From: Aphelocoma coerulescens
Lineage: Eukaryota > Chordata > Aves > Passeriformes > Corvidae
Direction of reading: 5' to 3'
Length of the DNA stretch: 64,000 nt
NCBI RefSeq assembly: GCF_041296385.1
Contig: NC_091014.1
Coordinates: 20,435,578-20,499,577, forward strand
Shown piece by piece: positions 1 through 64,000 of this stretch (position 1 is its first letter; every line of letters starts with the position of its first letter). Below the pieces are notes generated by a model, which worked only from the letters and a program-made list of their open reading frames with translations, was not told the DNA's origin and did not search any database. The translations under genes were made by a program, and so were the position numbers.

Positions 1-1
1 T

Positions 2-898
2 ACTAGCAATGTAGCAAACCCTGACTGGAAACCCTTACCTTGTTCTAATATTAAGGATTTGTGCAAGGCCATTAAGGAGTTTGGAATGCATAGTAATTAT
101 TTTAAGAGCCTTTTAAGTGCTACTTTTGCAACTCACTTACTAGTACCTCATGATTTACTAACATTGATGCAAACTCTTCTAACAGCTGGTGATTTTATGA
201 TGTGGAAAAAGCAATGGAAAATAATTTTATCTGATTTACTAAAAATTTTGTGGCAAACTCCAGATAATTACCTGGACCTTGAGAATAATTATATCACATT
301 AGACCTTTTATCTGGTGACAATAATATGGCAAATCCTCAAAAACAAGCAATGCTTATCCCTCGTCCAGTTCTTACTGAAATCACACGTGCTGCTGAAAAG
401 GCCTTAACATTATTACCATCTCAAACTCCTAACTCTCATTATACCGCCATCAAGCAATTGCCAAATGAAAATATTATTCACTTTTATAACCGTTTGTGCG
501 AAGCTGTCTCTTCTCAGGTCCCTAATCCTGACCTCCGACAAGCGCTCCTACTCGAACTTCTCCAAGTGAATACCAATGATGCTTGCAAACAAGTCATCCT
601 CACTCTCCCTCTTCATCCTCCTCCTACTGTTGAATCCATCCTCGAAGCCTGTACAAAGAAGGTGCAGCTGAACACAGCTGCTCCCTTTTTAGAAAAAGTG
701 GGGATGGTTGGGGAAGTTGTGGAGAATGCTATGGGTACAGGAAAAACTCAATCGCGTGGTAACCTTATATGCTATCGTTGTCAGAAAAAGGGACATGTAG
801 CTCGCAATTGCAGAGCCATTATAACTGCTGATAAAAACTCTCCAAAGACTGTTTCCCCAGGTCAACAGCGGGGAAACCAGCAACTCAACGCGTCCTAA
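2..898 (+). CDS. gag: Endogenous betaretrovirus-like gag, 3' part (capsid C-terminal half and nucleocapsid)
   Basis: The frame is open from the window edge to TAA at 896-898, so the true start and the matrix region lie upstream; the TTG at 59 is only an internal codon. Gag would build the intracellular particle and package its RNA. Seen directly: a capsid-like alpha-helical stretch, then a major homology region at 455-496 with the conserved Q, E, F and L spacing (Q-LPN-E-NIIH-F-YNR-L), then one CCHC zinc knuckle at 770-811 with exact C-X2-C-X4-H-X4-C spacing. Many betaretroviral nucleocapsids have two knuckles; only one is visible before the stop, with a 28-residue polar tail after it. The end of gag overlaps the pro-pol frame (-1) over 835-898, which carries the frameshift signal. 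No internal stop or frameshift is seen. The class II/ERVK-like assignment rests on the neighbouring pol and the frameshift layout. Confidence 0.9.
   Translation, partial: TSNVANPDWKPLPCSNIKDLCKAIKEFGMHSNYFKSLLSATFATHLLVPHDLLTLMQTLLTAGDFMMWKKQWKIILSDLLKILWQTPDNYLDLENNYITLDLLSGDNNMANPQKQAMLIPRPVLTEITRAAEKALTLLPSQTPNSHYTAIKQLPNENIIHFYNRLCEAVSSQVPNPDLRQALLLELLQVNTNDACKQVILTLPLHPPPTVESILEACTKKVQLNTAAPFLEKVGMVGEVVENAMGTGKTQSRGNLICYRCQKKGHVARNCRAIITADKNSPKTVSPGQQRGNQQLNAS
871..877 (+). promoter_or_regulatory. -1 ribosomal frameshift slippery heptamer GGGAAAC (gag to pro)
   Basis: In the gag frame the heptamer reads G GGA AAC, the exact X XXY YYZ phase needed for tandem -1 slippage. It lies inside the 835-898 overlap, 18 nt before the gag stop. 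After slippage the next codon is at 877 in the frame that stays open to 4341. The same heptamer is, to my knowledge, used at the gag-pro junction of Mason-Pfizer/simian betaretroviruses. It is followed after 9 nt by a foldable pseudoknot. Confidence 0.9.
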
Positions 899-3800
899 CA
901 GCTCCGCGTTCAGACAAAAATAGAGCTGCAGACAATGCAACTTGGACTTCTGGACTAAGGTTTAAGGTAACCTGTGCCAAAACACACCATTTCAACAACA
1001 ACAAACAGACTGCAATACCTATCTCATTCCAGAATGTGGACCACATGCAAGACTTTACATACCTTTTTGTTATTGGGGACACTCGGGTAACACCTGCTGG
1101 GATAGAGGTTACACCCACACTCATGAAAGTGGATCAGAATGGGTGTTCTAACGTAATGGTACAATGTATATATCCGCCGTACTTTATGCAAAAGGGTCAA
1201 GTCATTGCACAGGCCATTCCACTGCCCAAATACCTGCCCACAGATGGTCATATCCCAGCCATCTGTTGGACTGAGGTTTTGGGAAATGACAAACCTATAA
1301 TAGAATGTAAGCTCCGTCATAAATCACATAAAATCAGTATAATGGGAATGATAGACACAGGTGCTGATGTGACTGTCATTCCATTTGATAAGTGGCCTGA
1401 GCAATGGGAATTGCAGTCTCAGGGCATCATACAAGGGATTGGAGGTACCCAAATTGCAAAGCAATCCAAATACACCATCCAAATTGAAGGTCCTGAAGGA
1501 CAAATAGCAACTCTTCGTCCGTATGTCCTGGACACCAAATTCACCCTGTGGGGAAGGGATGCCATGTCTCAGGGGGGAACAAAAATTGATATCACCCCTA
1601 GATATCAAAATTTTCTCCTGCAGGCCACTGAAGCAGAGTGCCTTCCACAAAAATTAACTTGGAAAACAGATGAACCCGTGCAAGTTAGACAGTGGTCTTT
1701 AAAAAAAGAAAACTTAGAGGCACTCAAAACATTAGTAGCTGAACAATTGGCTAAAGGAAATATAGTTCCAACTAACAGCCCATGGAACACACCTGTGTTT
1801 GTAATAAAAAAAACGGGAAAGAACAAATATAGGCTACTCCAAGATCTTAGAGAAGTTAATAAAGTTATTGAAGACATGGGACCCCTTCAACCAGGTATGC
1901 CATCACCTTCAATGCTCCCACAACATTGGCATTTAGCTGTTCTTGACATTAAAGATTGCTTTTTTCATATTCCACTCCATCCTGCAGATGCCCCTCGATT
2001 TGCATTTTCTGTACCCTCTCTTAATCATGAAACCCCCATGGAACGTTACCATTGGCTTGTGCTTCCCCAAGGTATGAAAAATTCCCCAACTCTCTGCCAA
2101 GAGTACATTGCTAAAATTCTATCTCCCATCCGTGCCAAAGCAGAGAAAGCCATCATCCTACATTACATGGATGATGTGCTGGTGTGTGCTCCCAATAATC
2201 AGTATCTTGAGCAGACACTTAACATGGTGATTGAGGCCCTAGAGGCCAAGGGCTTTGAATTACAACCTGAAAAAATGCAGAGAACAAGCCCTTGGAAATA
2301 CCTCGGACTCAAAATCACAGAAACCTCTATCACCCCAACACCCGTCACCATTAATAATAACCCAAAAACATTAGAGGAAGTGCAACAGATCTGTGGGACA
2401 CTGAAGTATTTAAGGCGCTGGTTAGGACTCACCACAGAGGATGTAGCTCCTATTGCAAACCTAGTAAAAGGGGAAGGCGGTCCAGCATCCCCCAGATCCC
2501 TGACAGAAGAGGCAAGGCAGTCTCTCAGAAAGATACAAGAGCTCATTTCCACCAGGCAAGCACACAGGTATCAGCCCTCCCTACCCTTTAAGCTTGTCAT
2601 TCTAGGGAAGGCACCACGCTTTCACGGCCTCATATTTCAGTGGGACAAAGAGCAGAAGGACCACCTCATCATAATTGAATGGGTTTTCCTTCCACTCCAG
2701 CCTCCTAAAACCATCACACAGCCACAAGAATTAATAGCAAAAATTATCATGAAGGGTAGAGCAAGGCTCCGCACCCTGGCAGGATGTGACTTTGCATGCA
2801 TCTACTTACCGGTAACAACAGACACATTAGATCACCTACTCCAAAATAATATAAATTTACAATTTGCATTAGATAGTTACTCAGGCCAAATCTCAAATCA
2901 TTACCCAAAACATGAAATGTTTAATCTGGCATTCTCTTTCATCCCTCGAGAGATACAAAGCAGAAAACCCCTCGATGCGATTACTGTTTTTACTGATGCA
3001 TCAGGGAAAAGTAAGAAGTCCGTGGTCATGTGGAGAAATTCAAAGACACAAAAGTGGGAATCTGACATAAAGGTAATCCAAGGATCACCACAAGTAGCTG
3101 AATTAGCAGCTGTCATTAGAGCATTTGAGAGGTTCAAAGAACCCTTTAATTTGGTCACAGACTCAGCATATGTAGCTGGAGTAACTGTTAGAGCTGAGCA
3201 TGCTCTCCTAAAAGAAATCTCAAACAAAAAAATTTATGATTTACTCTCAAAATTAATTTATCTGGTTTCCCACAGAGAGCATCCCTATTTTGTCATGCAT
3301 GTGAGGTCACATACAAACCTGCCAGGATTTATTGCGGAAGGTAATCGTAGAGCTGATGCTCTGGCTATGCCAGCAGACATAGTTCTATCAGCCGACTTAC
3401 CAAAGCTCCCCCAAGTTTTCGAACAGGCAAAACTGAGCCATGCTATGTACCATCAAAATATTCCTGCTCTCATCCGCATGTTCCATCTGTCGCGGACGCA
3501 GGCAAAAGCAATAGTGGCAACATGTCCCAACTGCCAGAAGCTACAGCTTCCATCACTGGGCATGGGAGTCAATCCCAGAGGCATTAATAGCGGTGAAGTG
3601 TGGCAGATGGACGTCACACATTTCCCTGAATTTGGGAGATTAAAATACGTTCATGTTTCTATTGATACCTTCTCTGGTGCTATGTATGCCTCTGCACATG
3701 CAGGCGAAAAAGCTAGGGACGTTGAAAAACATCTTGTCCAAGCTTTTGCTGTGCTCGGTATACCTGAGGAGATAAAAACTGATAATGGACCTGCCTACAC

Positions 3801-4341
3801 CTCTCAGGAGTTTAAAAACTTCCGTCAGCAGTGGGGATTTCGACATGTTACAGGTATTCCTCACTCCCCAACCGGACAAGGCATTGTTGAACGTGCCCAT
3901 CAAACCCTCAAGCGAATGCTGCTACAACAATCAGGGACCACCAAACTCAATTCACCTGTCCTCAGACTCAGCAAAGCACTGTTTACCATAAACTTCCTGA
4001 ATGGCACCTTTGAGGATCCAAACCCTCCCATCTATCGTCATTTCCAGAACACCGGGAGACAGAAACTGAAGGAGAATCCAGAAGTCCTGATCCGGGACCC
4101 AGAGACTCAGAAAATCCAAGGACCATACAAACTTGTAACTTGGGGACGTGGGTATGCCAGTGTATCTACCCCTCAAGGACTGAGATGGATCCCAGGGAAA
4201 TGGGTAAAGCCTTATGTCACTTCCTCAAAAATTAAGGAGGTTAAAACTGCCTCCTGGAAGAGACGCCGTAAAAAGGATCCTAATTTTGCACCTTCATGTA
4301 AACCCTTTGCTGCAGATTTTGATGTTAATCCCTTGAGTTAA
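877..4341 (+). CDS. pro-pol: Endogenous betaretrovirus-like pro-pol: protease, reverse transcriptase, RNase H, integrase in one open frame
   Basis: This frame is open from 835; translation is expected to enter at 877 by -1 frameshift from gag, giving 1154 codons before the TAA. Order: a linker and possible degenerate dUTPase-like segment (about 1036-1290; no full dUTPase motif set seen); aspartic protease with DTGAD at 1354-1368; RT with its first catalytic Asp at 1945-1947 and YMDD at 2164-2175; RNase H with D, E, D, D at 2995, 3100, 3160 and 3355 and a conserved His at 3310; integrase with the HHCC zinc site (H 3439, H 3451, C 3523, C 3532), catalytic D 3610, D 3781 and E 3889 (exact D-X35-E), then a basic C-terminal DNA-binding domain about 4090-4280. 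All active-site residues are present and no stop interrupts 3.4 kb, so the insertion is young or conserved. Unlike classical betaretroviruses, protease and RT share one frame. No env follows. Confidence 0.93.
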   Translation, partial: PATQRVLTAPRSDKNRAADNATWTSGLRFKVTCAKTHHFNNNKQTAIPISFQNVDHMQDFTYLFVIGDTRVTPAGIEVTPTLMKVDQNGCSNVMVQCIYPPYFMQKGQVIAQAIPLPKYLPTDGHIPAICWTEVLGNDKPIIECKLRHKSHKISIMGMIDTGADVTVIPFDKWPEQWELQSQGIIQGIGGTQIAKQSKYTIQIEGPEGQIATLRPYVLDTKFTLWGRDAMSQGGTKIDITPRYQNFLLQATEAECLPQKLTWKTDEPVQVRQWSLKKENLEALKTLVAEQLAKGNIVPTNSPWNTPVFVIKKTGKNKYRLLQDLREVNKVIEDMGPLQPGMPSPSMLPQHWHLAVLDIKDCFFHIPLHPADAPRFAFSVPSLNHETPMERYHWLVLPQGMKNSPTLCQEYIAKILSPIRAKAEKAIILHYMDDVLVCAPNNQYLEQTLNMVIEALEAKGFELQPEKMQRTSPWKYLGLKITETSITPTPVTINNNPKTLEEVQQICGTLKYLRRWLGLTTEDVAPIANLVKGEGGPASPRSLTEEARQSLRKIQELISTRQAHRYQPSLPFKLVILGKAPRFHGLIFQWDKEQKDHLIIIEWVFLPLQPPKTITQPQELIAKIIMKGRARLRTLAGCDFACIYLPVTTDTLDHLLQNNINLQFALDSYSGQISNHYPKHEMFNLAFSFIPREIQSRKPLDAITVFTDASGKSKKSVVMWRNSKTQKWESDIKVIQGSPQVAELAAVIRAFERFKEPFNLVTDSAYVAGVTVRAEHALLKEISNKKIYDLLSKLIYLVSHREHPYFVMHVRSHTNLPGFIAEGNRRADALAMPADIVLSADLPKLPQVFEQAKLSHAMYHQNIPALIRMFHLSRTQAKAIVATCPNCQKLQLPSLGMGVNPRGINSGEVWQMDVTHFPEFGRLKYVHVSIDTFSGAMYASAHAGEKARDVEKHLVQAFAVLGIPEEIKTDNGPAYTSQEFKNFRQQWGFRHVTGIPHSPTGQGIVERAHQTLKRMLLQQSGTTKLNSPVLRLSKALFTINFLNGTFEDPNPPIYRHFQNTGRQKLKENPEVLIRDPETQKIQGPYKLVTWGRGYASVSTPQGLRWIPGKWVKPYVTSSKIKEVKTASWKRRRKKDPNFAPSCKPFAADFDVNPLS
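887..928 (+). promoter_or_regulatory. H-type RNA pseudoknot stimulating gag-pro frameshifting
   Basis: Stem 1 pairs AACGCG (887-892) with CGCGTT (905-910), 6 of 6 Watson-Crick. The loop segment CAGCTC (899-904) pairs with GAGCTG (923-928), again 6 of 6. Loop 1 is 893-898 and contains the gag stop codon; there is no base between stem 2 and the 3' strand of stem 1; loop 2 is 911-922 (12 nt). The spacer from the slippery heptamer is 9 nt (878-886). This geometry is typical of retroviral frameshift pseudoknots. The base pairing is read directly from the sequence; function is inferred. Confidence 0.85.
1608..1614 (+). other. Vestigial pro-pol slippery-type heptamer A AAT TTT
   Basis: At the protease/RT border the protease frame reads caA AAT TTT, a canonical slippery pattern in the correct phase. 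To my knowledge AAAUUUU is the pro-pol slip site of Mason-Pfizer-type viruses. Here RT continues in the same frame without slipping, and a -1 slip would meet TGA at 1629-1631. It therefore looks like a leftover of an ancestral second frameshift. A chance match in an A/T-rich stretch cannot be excluded. Confidence 0.5.
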
Positions 4342-4571
4342 GTTGCACTGTTTTGCACTCAGGTTTTTGCACTGTACTCTGTAAGTCTTCGTCCTGATAC
4401 TCCATACCATAGATGTCCTAACTAACCCCCTGAGTTTTGCTGGGGAACTAGTTTAAAGGCATCCTAGGTACTATCGAAGTTGTAGGGACGATAGATTCCA
4501 GTTATGTTTTGCACTGTTGTTCTGTTACTGTTCTATGCACTTTAAGTTACTAAGAGTTACAACCCAGCTTT
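4342..4571 (+). other. Short env-less spacer between pol stop and polypurine tract
   Basis: Where env would normally lie there are only about 230 nt with no significant frame. Five TGCACT hexamers occur (4344, 4354, 4368, 4510, 4536), the first three within 30 nt. A 6-bp perfect hairpin pairs CTATCG (4471-4476) with CGATAG (4489-4494) around a 12-nt loop. In simple retroviruses this position can hold an RNA export element; nothing here matches a known one by eye. Confidence 0.6.
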
Positions 4572-4592
4572 AAAAAAAAAAAAATAGGGAAT
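4572..4592 (+). promoter_or_regulatory. Polypurine tract (plus-strand primer)
   Basis: A run of purines (A-rich, one T at 4585, ending in GGGA) lies directly before the TG that opens the 3' LTR. This is the expected position of the RNase H-resistant primer for plus-strand DNA synthesis. It is A-rich rather than G-rich, which is somewhat unusual. Confidence 0.7.
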
Positions 4593-4860
4593 TGTTGCTG
4601 CCTGTTCTGAACTTCCCCTCCCCCTCCCAAAGACACGTGCTCCGGCCACGTGCTCCGAGCTCCTTTGTTCGAAGCGCGGGCAAAACCAAATGTAACTCAA
4701 ACTCTTCAGCAGTGTCTGATTGGCCACTCACCCCAGGTCCTCCCCTTCCCTCTTCTCCGAATAAAGGATAGTCGAGGGGAGGCTCCGCCCTCTCTCAGCT
4801 CAGCTATCTTCCTGTGAACATCTGTGGTTGTCTCTCTCTTTCTTAAGGCTTCTAACTGCA
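4593..4860 (+). mobile_element. 3' LTR of the env-less provirus (3' end approximate)
   Basis: It starts with TG right after the polypurine tract. It is GC-richer than the host DNA, has an inverted CCAAT box (ATTGG) about 4718-4722, an AATAAA at 4760-4765 followed by a GT/T-rich stretch at 4821-4845, and could end in TGCA at 4857-4860. No clear TATAAA is seen, so AATAAA may serve both as poly(A) signal and TATA-like box. The terminal inverted repeat is poor and the 5' LTR is outside the window, so the right border could be later (up to about 5092). Confidence 0.6.
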
Positions 4861-5092
4861 GGAAATTGAGCGGGCAGGGAGCTATATTTCTCCCTCTTTG
4901 CTTCTGCTGATGGTATTTGCTCTGCAGCTGATACAGGTACCGATTTTAGAGCTATTAAGGTGCTAGATCGCCTGTGCTGCCTCTCTGGGCTGCTCGAGGC
5001 TTTCTAAGGCATTGAAATACAAGCGCTAGCCGGTATAAAGCTGAAAAGATACCATCCACAAGGTACCCACAAAAACCACCCACTCACTCTTC
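4861..5092. other. Unassigned sequence between two LTRs
   Basis: This is 232 bp between the proposed end of the provirus and the next LTR. It may be host flank or a longer U5. No frame, repeat unit or motif is recognised. Confidence 0.3.
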
Positions 5093-6086
5093 TGCTGCAG
5101 CCAGACAGAGAAAATTTAACAAAGGGTACAGGAGTTGAGATCAGGACTGGGAGAAGACAGAAGGGCAAAGAAGTCTCAATATGAAGTGATTTATTGCTAG
5201 CAGGTTCAGAGCAGGATAATGAGAAGTAAAATAAGCACTTAAAACCACCTTCTCCCCATCCCTCCCTCCTTCCCAGCTCTACTGCCTACCCCAGCAACAC
5301 AGGGAGATGGGAATGGGGGTTATGGTCAGTTCATCACCCATTGCTTCTCCTGCTGCTCAGGGAAAGTAGTTGTTCCCCTGCTGCACCATGGGGTCCCTCC
5401 CATGGGAGACAGTTCCCCGTGGACTTCTCGGACATGAGTCCATCTTATATGCAATACCTCTCTGCAAACTGCTGCAATGTGAATCCATCCCACAGGCAAC
5501 AGTACCCCTCAAACTGCTGCAATGTGGGTCACTCTGACAAGGGCGTAGTCCTCCAAGGACAGGCTGTTCCAGCCTGGAAGCAGGGCCCTCTCTCTCCACT
5601 GGGTCTCCCACTGGATCACAGCCTCCGCCAGGCATCCACCTGCTCCAGCATAGGCACCTCCCCTACAGGCTGCGGGTGGATCTCTGCATCCCCTGTGGAT
5701 CCCCATGGGCTGCAGGGGCACAGCTGCCTCTCCATGTCTGCACCATGGCCTGCAGAGGAATCTCAGCTTCGGCGCCTGGCGCACCTCCTGCCCCTCCTTC
5801 TCCACTGACCTTGGTGTCTCCATGTTGTTCTCTTCATATATTTTCACTCCCCTCTTCCCTAGTCACAATTAAAACTCTGCCACAAGTTTTGTTTTGATTT
5901 CTTCTTAAATTTCTTATCACAGAGGCGTTACCACCATTTCTAATTGGCCCGGCCTTGGCCAGCAGCATGTCCATCTTTAGAGCCACCAGGGATTTGCTCT
6001 GCCGGACATAGTAGAAGCTTCCAGCAGCTTCTCACCTTTTCTGTGCGCCCCCCCCACCAAAACAAAGGCCATGCAAAACCAATACA
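5093..6086 (-). mobile_element. Solo LTR, minus strand, unrelated to the adjacent provirus
   Basis: On the minus strand the unit begins TGTATTGG at 6086 and ends GCTGCAGCA at 5093, i.e. TG...CA. A 4-bp direct repeat CTTC flanks it (5089-5092 and 6087-6090), which is weak support for a target duplication. It has a TATA-like ATTTAAG segment at about 5905-5920 and an AATAAA poly(A) signal on the minus strand (TTTATT at 5190-5195) followed by about 100 nt to the end. The overall sequence resembles an abundant avian ERV LTR family known to me by appearance only; the class is uncertain. The long frames in both directions inside it are by-products of its GC content and 45-bp repeats, not genes. Confidence 0.6.
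5394..5528. repeat. 45-bp tandem repeat, three degenerate copies, inside the LTR
   Basis: Copies at 5394-5438, 5439-5483 and 5484-5528 each start TCC(C/A)TC and end in a (C/A)ATG(T)G-type block. The second and third share an exact AACTGCTGCAATGTG core. The period is exactly 45, a multiple of three, which keeps an accidental frame open. A fourth, poorer copy may follow at 5529-5573. Confidence 0.7.
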
Positions 6087-62100: not shown

Positions 62101-62520
62101 TATACACAATGTCAGGTAATAATGCATAGCCAGTCCATGCAATAAAGGAAATTCTCTTAGAAGCTGAGAAAAAGCTATATTTAGACTGAGCTTTGACAAA
62201 TTTTGCTTTGACAAATCTTATTAGCTCAGATTAGCTGTTGGAAGGACCAAATGTTCCCAAGAATTGAACTTTTCTTTAATTTATGAATTCAAATAAGAAA
62301 CCATTCCACCCTCAAGAAAAGCTACAGTTGGAATCATCCACAGAAAACTGAAACCAGACACTTGCAATCTTGCATGCCAGCTTTTCTCCTCAATGAATCT
62401 CCAACTGAAGCTCAGATAGGTATATATCAACACACAAACATACACACATATATATATGTATTCACATGACAAAGAAGGAGACCAAGTAGAATAACAGAAC
62501 AATAGGTTCATGAAGCTACT
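59135..62520. other. Non-coding AT-rich host sequence
   Basis: No gene or repeat family recognised; a T21 run lies at 61478-61498 and a TA/CA-rich tract at about 62435-62460. Confidence 0.5.
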
Positions 62521-63066
62521 TTATACCGCCCAGGGATGCTCGACACTGGAGCAGATGTGACCATCATCGCCCGCTCCGAGTGGCCAGGGAATTGGGAACT
62601 GGAGCCAGTGGCAGGTATGATCTCCGGGATTGGTGGAGTTGCAGTATCCATGAGGAGCAAATGAAATGTCATCATCGAAGGACCCGAGGGCAAGATAGCG
62701 ACCACCCGACCATTCGTGGTAAGGGCCCCCATCACCCTATGGGGCAGAGACCTTCTATCCCAGTGGGGTGCCACTCTTACCATTCCCAGCCAGGATTTCT
62801 GACTGGGGCCACTGGGAAACGCGCGCTGCCATCTACTCCCCCGCTCACCTGGAAGACTGACAACCCAAAGTGGACAAGACAGTGGCCCCTTAAAGAAGAA
62901 AAACTGCGCACGTTGGAAGCCCTGGTGGAAGAACAACTTGCCAAAGGTCACATCACCGAGACCACGAGCCCCTGGAATTCCCCTGTCTTTGTGCTGAAAA
63001 ATGCCCGGCAAAGACAAATGGAGACTACTCCATGACCTACAGAAGATCAATGAGGTCATTGAAGAC
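62521..63066 (+). pseudogene. Broken protease-RT fragment of a second betaretrovirus-like ERV
   Basis: The + strand frame from 62521 encodes the protease active site DTGAD at 62542-62556, an IGG flap-like motif near 62620-62634 and a LWGRDLL-type C-terminal helix near 62737-62757. TGA at 62662-62664 interrupts it and TGA at 62800-62802 ends it. The N-terminal RT region (TWKTDNP, then the EEQLAKGHI and SPWNSPVF motifs) is in the -1 frame from 62799. Near 62996-63006 the frame changes back, and homology stops at about 63066, long before YMDD. The copy is much GC-richer than the first element and clearly different from it in sequence, so it belongs to another family. It is non-functional. Confidence 0.85.
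62793..62799 (+). other. GGATTTC heptamer at the protease/RT frame change
   Basis: In the protease frame this is G GAT TTC, followed at once by TGA; RT continues in the -1 frame from 62799. The heptamer resembles the pro-pol slip site of mouse mammary tumour virus type, as I recall it. It could be a real frameshift site or coincide with a one-base deletion. Confidence 0.4.
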
Positions 63067-63333
63067 CTTCTCAGCAACTCTCTGCCCTCACTGGGGCAGG
63101 GGGCTAGCTTTATAGGGATACAGGGGGTGGGTGTCAGAGGGTAAGGGCCAATGGGTTACAAAGGATCTGCCTAGGGTCTCCCAGAGGATTCTGGGTTTGT
63201 CTTCTTCTCTCCATAACTGAGAAGTGGCTGCCTTCCCAGGAGGGGTCCTGCTGGGAGATTGCTGAATCTCCTTATCTCAGCAGATGTCCCTCCAGGGCAG
63301 TGGCTGGGCATACCCTACAACTTTACCCTGACA
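63067..63333 (-). mobile_element. Truncated LTR (U3 and start of R), minus strand
   Basis: On the minus strand it starts TGTCAGGGTAAAG at 63333 (or TGTAGGGTATGCC at 63319) and runs through GC-rich U3 to a TATAAAG box (63108-63114), followed about 25 nt later by a GAGGGCAGAG segment. It then meets the + oriented pol fragment at about 63066. The promoter layout and the TG start support an LTR; it is cut before any poly(A) signal. Confidence 0.55.
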
Positions 63334-64000
63334 GTACATCAAATCTGGCTCATGAGGCAGCCTACCCAGCTTCAAGAGGACTATTGAGTCAGTATTTTAA
63401 ATCTCCTTTTACTTTTTAAGGCAGCAGATGTAGAAAGGAAATCTATACGGAAAATCTAACTGCAAAATTCAGAACTGGTTGGCATTTTTAAAACTGACCC
63501 AAAACTGCAAAACAAAACACATGAAGAGTCTATTAATAATGAAATTACATTCAATAGCAAAAGGTTTCTATGGAAACCAAAAGTAAAACTCTTGCAGCAG
63601 AAACACTTATTCTGGCTGCAAGGAGTACTAGAGTATCACATGGAATTCTGTTTTCCTATAATGTGTCTGCTGAATAGATTATTTATACATGATTAAATCC
63701 TAACCATAGTTTTGTGATATTTTAGTATGAGGAGCCAGTACAGTAATTATAGTTAATGTACCTGAATAAATTTAGAGTTCAAGCAGGCAAGAAAGATATG
63801 TTACATCTTTGCATAATTAAAATTGTGCATAATTTTGCAAGTGAAATGTGATCAAGAAGAGATGATGTACAAACTCCAGCTTAGCATACAATGGTAAAAG
63901 CAAGAAAATTACCCAAGAGCACATTAGAACTGGTGTAGCCATGGGCCAGTTCAAAGAAAAATAGTGAAAATTTCTCAGGACATATACTACTCCATCCATC
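63334..64000. other. Non-coding host sequence to the window end
   Basis: AT-rich, with no recognised gene or repeat. Confidence 0.5.

Follow-up and report, generated by a model that had tools for sequence, protein, structure and literature searches.

We analysed a window of 64,000 nucleotides (nt) from the genome of Aphelocoma coerulescens (assembly GCF_041296385.1, contig NC_091014.1, positions 20,435,578 to 20,499,577 of the forward strand), which begins inside an endogenous retrovirus (ERV), the 5′ part of gag preceding it. Positions 871 to 928 of this window very probably form a signal for programmed −1 ribosomal frameshifting in a young class II ERV that lacks env, an interpretation to which we would assign a probability of roughly 93%, and by all signs the signal would have been used recently. 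The observations concern the sequence, its phase, the reading frames, their conservation in copies of the element, and the covariation of the inner stem pairs across related families.

According to this interpretation, a ribosome reading gag would have G GGA AAC in its P and A sites as it encounters a pseudoknot. A fraction of the ribosomes would slip back by one base, bypass the gag stop codon located in loop 1 of the knot, and continue into the long pro-pol frame, and the remaining ones would terminate at 896-898. This single slip would set the supply of protease, reverse transcriptase (RT), RNase H, and integrase relative to Gag. The formation of the knot in RNA, the slippage, and its efficiency are predicted here from the sequence. 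The signal would be ordinary in kind, a well-known device, and it is of some interest in that one slip seems to serve both the protease and the polymerase.

Layout of the signal and the odds of chance

The sequence presents what is expected of a −1 frameshift site: an in-phase heptamer in overlapping frames, a short spacer, and a downstream structure, which in this case is a knot proposed from sequence and covariation (Table 1). The heptamer GGGAAAC keeps the X XXY YYZ phase, and the gag/pro overlap contains no other strict heptamer in phase. The topology of the putative knot is H-type, with two perfect stems of 6 base pairs (bp) and 0 nt between the 5′ arm of stem 2 and the 3′ arm of stem 1. 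A preliminary description of the window, made from the sequence alone, had listed the slippery phase, the 9-nt spacer, the 6+6 bp H-type topology, and the gag stop within loop 1; its coordinates and parts proved exact.

Table 1. Features of the frameshift signal and of the provirus that carries it, in window coordinates.
Feature	Position	Strand	Basis
Slippery heptamer GGGAAAC, zero frame G GGA AAC	871..877	+	Sequence, phase; intact in 30/30 young copies, including that of the window
Spacer, 9 nt	878..886	+	Sequence
Stem 1, 5′ arm AACGCG	887..892	+	Perfect pairing with 905-910; inner five pairs covary
Loop 1 TCCTAA, 6 nt, with gag stop TAA at 896-898	893..898	+	Sequence, open reading frames (ORFs)
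Stem 2, 5′ arm CAGCTC	899..904	+	Perfect pairing with 923-928; inner five pairs covary
Stem 1, 3′ arm CGCGTT	905..910	+	Pairing, covariation
Loop 2, 12 nt, A-rich	911..922	+	Resembles loop 2 of related families (alignments)
Stem 2, 3′ arm GAGCTG	923..928	+	Pairing, covariation
gag, 3′ part, capsid and one CCHC knuckle at ~770-814	2..898	+	ORF; Pfam Gag_p24 3e-26, zf-CCHC 2.7e-5
pro-pol, one open frame, −1 to gag, 1168 aa	835..4341	+	ORF
Possible degenerate dUTPase-like domain, 5′ of protease	940..1266	+	PDB 2d4l, E 0.064
pro-pol boundary, passed through in frame here	1607..1614	+	6/6 relatives displayed: pro stop there, pol in −1 frame
pol stop to 3′ long terminal repeat (LTR), ~250 nt, polypurine tract at end	4342..4592	+	Same arrangement in 7/7 further copies fetched
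3′ LTR (TG...CA)	4593..5060	+	467/469 aligned positions equal to 5′ LTR
Target-site duplication AGGTAC, 6 bp	5061..5066	+	Flanks provirus

The same description had called the combination very unlikely by chance, and the counts bear this out. The words CGCG and AGCT are self-complementary and pair easily, which lends something to the idea that short complementary words merely happen to lie 3′ of a heptamer. Against this, a Watson-Crick 6+6 knot appeared in only 2 of 20,000 dinucleotide shuffles of positions 878-957 (27 when G-U pairs were allowed, and 0 in narrow ranges). Moreover, of the 1,151 slippery heptamers that the window contains when both strands are counted, only the one at 871-877 is followed by such a knot, even with generous loop ranges, the other 1,150 being without. 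Together with the covariation between families described below, these figures make a chance arrangement scarcely credible. Of 127,800 positions, 16 are the start of a 6+6 knot, and a scan of the window with Rfam at the gathering threshold gave no match.

Young copies and related families

A search of the same genome with window positions 740-1140 returned 224 candidates, of which the 40 that were scored are 98-100% identical. The 30 copies fetched, the window's own included, are the best matches and say nothing of how much of the family at large is intact. In all 30, the heptamer and the pairing are intact and gag is open across the 1,632 bases covered, and in 28 the pro-pol frame is open to the end of the locus, the other two stopping beyond the pro-pol boundary. 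The only stem site that varies among them is 887, where 7 of the 30 carry G instead of A; this turns an A-U pair into G-U and keeps the pair. Covariation within the young family is impossible because the scored copies are so nearly identical.

The suggestion of recent or retained function in the preliminary description gains support from these copies and from the near-identical LTRs of the provirus. In fact, at least 40 near-identical copies, with open frames in the 30 fetched (gag in 30, pro-pol in 28), imply that the signal worked when the copies were made. One may still ask whether it is now a fossil, carried intact through a recent insertion and inactive today, the family being silenced or defective elsewhere. 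LTRs so young would leave any sequence intact, and two of the fetched copies do have pro-pol stops within the part covered; on the other side stand the number and identity of the copies and their open frames. We consider this alternative, which concerns present use only, unlikely but worth keeping in mind.

Evidence on the structure comes from older relatives. A protease-motif pattern that excluded the letters of the young family matched 1,101 genomic places, compared with zero in a reversed control, and there are therefore many other class II copies in this genome. In a junction survey of 26 sequences, a CCHC knuckle was found in 19, and 14 of these, the window included, then show an in-phase GGGAAAC or A-run heptamer. 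Three related families, named here after loci L040, L041, and L074, share the layout with different stem letters and were aligned to the window's signal without structure; loop 2 is alike across families in these alignments. The L040 family has 18 places, 17 of them fetched and the last a 54-base match, and the L041 family consists of L041, L047, and L079 to L082. For the L074 family, 40 of 134 candidates were scored and 20 were fetched besides L074 itself, the strict heptamer being retained in 16 of its 21 rows. The families of L042, L046, L066, L071, L073, and L078 were surveyed and left out of the alignments, since their junctions were seemingly unalignable or no like knot was seen, and the sample therefore favours families that fit.

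The structure of the window was then imposed on four alignments. The first (A1) has 19 rows, with L086, L087 (= L085 there), L095, L099 (deletions), L047, and L029 left out; the second (A2) restores all of these and has 25 rows, 23 of them distinct; the third (A3) adds the L074 family and reaches 46 rows; and the fourth (A4) has 28 rows, without the L040 family and L081. In A1, 79.4% of the cells are paired and the covariation is 0.248 versus 0.154 ± 0.016 in shuffles, none of 500 reaching it. A2 gives much the same result (78.7% paired; 0.257 versus 0.156 ± 0.016; 0/500), and when the pairing partners are slid by 1-3 columns in A2, the paired share falls to between 26.9 and 49.0%. The preliminary description had held that a lack of compensatory changes in related copies would speak against the signal; what is found is that both stem cores change letters and mostly keep their pairing.

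It could be argued that the stimulator is simply the hairpin of stem 1 and that the pairing of stem 2 is incidental. Nested folding does yield the stem 1 hairpin without stem 2, and in our reading of the alignment stem 2 has only 4 bp in the L041 family. Yet the covariation of stem 2 is the stronger of the two: its inner five pairs are 87.2% paired, with a covariation of 0.276 versus 0.105 ± 0.023 that no shuffle out of 500 reaches, as compared with 84.5% paired and 4 of 500 shuffles for the inner five pairs of stem 1. For instance, at one inner pair of stem 2 the window has A-U where the L041 family has G-C and most of the L040 family has U-A, and loop 2 is similar between families. We therefore hold the hairpin alternative to be very improbable. 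For the L040 family, a different stem 1 at alignment columns 18-22/42-46 was tried and rejected as worse than the window's register (66.4% paired; 22/500).

Several points weigh against the frameshift pseudoknot proposed here, the first group of which concerns energy and geometry. Nested folding of 871-940 gives a structure of ordinary stability (z −0.38), a value that is to be expected because the nested method is blind to stem 2 and cannot show it. By stem energy, the frameshift knot is only the second among the knots enumerated in window positions 1-4592. A computed H-type knot from 1240 onward, in the protease coding part, has a stem energy of −26.23 and ranks higher; it is probably due to chance. 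An automatic knot search that required both stems to be free of mismatches and 5 bp or longer was positive in only 4 of the 14 heptamer junctions, the window included, and in the nearest family stem 2 is displaced by about two pairs. Loop 1 (6 nt) and the spacer (9 nt) also exceed those of all nine GGGAAAC retroviruses tabulated in PMC3835772.

The remaining points concern the comparisons between copies. In A2, the outermost pairs are not shared: that of stem 1 forms in 5 of 22 rows, and that of stem 2 in 3 of the 8 rows that have letters there. As many pairs with changes on both sides as in the true alignment occur in 40 of 500 shuffles for A1 and in 175 of 500 for A2. Stem 1 is weak in A3, which is dominated by one decayed family (0.255 versus 0.225; 27/500), and nine pairs in A4, which joins the window with the L074 and L041 families, are matched by 74 of 500 shuffles; with twelve pairs, positioned so as to fit the L074 family, only 2 of 500 do so. 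A slide by +2 scores fairly high in A2 (0.203), probably owing to the alternating CGCG stem. Furthermore, the shuffle control ignores the kinship of the rows, and related rows can beat shuffles without any structure, whereas the slid control keeps kinship but tends to favour any structure that derives from one of the aligned sequences, as the present one does. Among the young copies, the signal has 1 variable site in 58 positions as against 44/870 and 45/1,672 outside it, too few for a claim of constraint; the idea that purifying selection constrains the signal was accordingly dropped for want of statistical power. The older families hold many decayed copies with many pair-breaking changes, and support therefore comes mainly from differences between families. 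The case from covariation rests on the shuffle controls, the slid-partner control, and the shared layout jointly.

The provirus and other class II elements

The provirus is young and env-less and, judged by its best structure matches, belongs to the class II (alpha/beta-like) ERVs. Three pieces of pro-pol matched the Pfam families RVP, RVT_1, RVT_thumb, RNase_H, Integrase_Zn, rve, and IN_DBD_C, which correspond to protease, RT, RNase H, and integrase. The best PDB matches of Gag are 5a9e and p27 capsids (2x8q is named Rous sarcoma virus), with HERV-K Gag lower in the list, and the best match of RT among solved structures is 7sr6, "Polymerase", which we take to be that of HERV-K. A primer site of the lysine-tRNA type and a 6-bp target-site duplication are marks of class II (alpha/beta-like) ERVs, and both are found here: TGGCGCCCAACGTG, presumably a lysine-tRNA type primer site, lies 3′ of the 5′ LTR, and AGGTAC is duplicated.

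Only about 250 nt separate the pol stop from the LTR, and there is therefore no env. High copy number and a frequent lack of env are also features of intracisternal A particles (IAPs). The 5′ LTR lies at L009:3084-3552, L009 being the 5 kb upstream of the window, and, over 469 aligned positions, differs from the 3′ LTR by a substitution and an indel. With the rate of 0.19% per million years given for chicken in PMC5260121, this would correspond to an age of about 0.6 million years, a very rough figure since it depends on a single substitution.

Between the frameshift site and the protease, positions 940-1266 gave a single match in a PDB search up to E 10, a weak one to a dUTP nucleotidohydrolase chain, and this stretch is perhaps a dUTPase whose catalytic motifs have been lost; there was no Pfam match in 871-1290 and no NCBIfam match for the stretch before the protease. 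The Pfam matches of the gag and pro-pol pieces include no G-patch family, no search having been aimed at G-patch. In the 5′ gag piece, the sole Pfam match was unrelated (E 0.12), and ten other ORFs of the window had none. A search for homologous proteins with the gag piece returned 1,802 candidates, none at E ≤ 0.001, and in a search of viral contigs with the protease piece 4 stretches fitted a pattern, with no relative among them. Downstream of the provirus, positions 5435-5524 hold two 45-base tandem copies that are 73% alike.

A second class II ERV fragment is found at 62514-63419 of the window (+), with a protease motif at 62542 (also L045). It comprises the protease and the beginning of similarity to RT, the two in −1 register, and has stops upstream. 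Elsewhere in the genome, ERV matches recur at repeated spacings on contigs C3 (63.16-63.58 Mb, ~12.5 and 19.3 kb), C8 (3.774-3.790 Mb, 7.82 kb), C13 (26.80-27.22 Mb, 38-48 kb), and C34 (13.506-13.532 Mb, exactly 6,574 bases four times), which suggests that proviruses, or segments containing them, are arrayed in tandem there. Contigs C34 and C35 carry 30 of the 40 scored places of the L074 family (134 candidates). This concentration would fit a W chromosome acting as an ERV refugium (PMC8310711).

One predicted frameshift instead of two

The closest likeness to the signal, as far as the table of PMC3835772 goes, is with type D betaretroviruses and HERV-K10 (SRV-1, SRV-2, MPMV, JSRV, and SMRV), which also use GGGAAAC followed by an H-type knot without loop 3. 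They agree with the window's knot in the length of stem 1 (6 bp), of stem 2 (6 bp, or 7 in SMRV alone), and of loop 2 (9-14 nt). In contrast, their spacer is 7 nt and their loop 1 is 1 nt, versus 9 and 6 nt here, and their stem energies are tabulated as −31.8 to −33.8 kcal/mol versus a stacking sum of −23.35 kcal/mol for the window, two measures that may differ. Loop 1 has 1-2 nt in all nine tabulated GGGAAAC retroviruses, and spacers span 0-9 nt among the retroviral frameshift sites listed there. In our reading of that table, the rows marked CPK1 have a loop 1 of 1-2 nt and a loop 3 of 0; the window shares the absence of loop 3 and differs in its 6-nt loop 1. Thus, the window's signal may work like a type D knot without fitting the CPK1 rows.

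The arrangement of the enzymes in the window is less usual when set against the element's relatives. In six of the six relatives displayed, a stop ends the protease frame 249-264 bases past the active-site motif, and L048 also has an earlier stop. The protease/polymerase register was scored in 23 rows drawn from 44 loci plus the window, only loci with both a protease and a polymerase match being considered and the last entries, the window included, being left unscored; it is −1 in 18, 0 in 2, and +1 in 3. In the window, protease and polymerase share one frame, which crosses the boundary in 30 of 30 copies. Since the two are fused in this way, one frameshift should serve all the enzymes. The preliminary description had spoken of a gag-pro signal, and the signal does stand at the gag/pro junction; the label falls short in that, with pro and pol fused, it would gate Gag-Pro-Pol and not only Gag-Pro.

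According to PMC1224870, a −1/−1 gag/pro/pol plan characterises the beta-like group of chicken and reptile ERVs, and the window element departs from it with −1/0. The chicken alpha-beta (intermediate beta-like) ERVs of that source are alike in being class II, in the −1 step from gag to pro, and perhaps in a dUTPase-like stretch before the protease, the resemblance being weak in the window; they follow the −1/−1 plan, whereas the window's family is −1/0, intact, young, and without env. Nevertheless, their Pro-Pol register is given there as −1 in 5, 0 in 3, and +1 in 1, and the 0-register cases may partly reflect mutation. IAPs are also endogenous elements that make Gag-Pro-Pol by frameshifting, but they are described in PMC5009743 as using two separate frameshifts instead of one, and the three IAPs tabulated in PMC3835772 have AAAAAAC instead of GGGAAAC. 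In the lentiviruses (HIV −1/0 in PMC1224870; table of PMC3835772), one gag-pol frameshift likewise yields protease and polymerase; unlike them, the window element has a capsid and RT whose relatives are alpha/beta-like. Among the papers listed by a literature search, none describes this element as judged by title and abstract, which speaks only weakly for its novelty.

For some retroviruses, PMC5009743 reports that a further slip takes place where pro ends, with example efficiencies of 23% and 8% and an overall Gag-Pro-Pol share of about 2-5%. If the same final ratio is needed, the signal of an element with a single slip should therefore be weaker. A longer loop 1 and a modest stem energy, as in the window, would be consistent with this, although they are no proof of it. 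One could then imagine, as a doubtful and deliberately tentative proposal, that a class II lineage dropped its second frameshift by fusing the frames and kept a remodelled knot, with a long loop 1 and modest stems, as the sole control over its enzymes; the change from two slips to one may accompany the loss of env and the burst of copies. At any rate, homologous frameshift knots occur in related families of a single genome, their stems having diverged while the inner pairs were kept, and the presence of two translational plans (−1/−1 and −1/0) in that genome makes the retuning of a signal after the loss of one slip directly testable.

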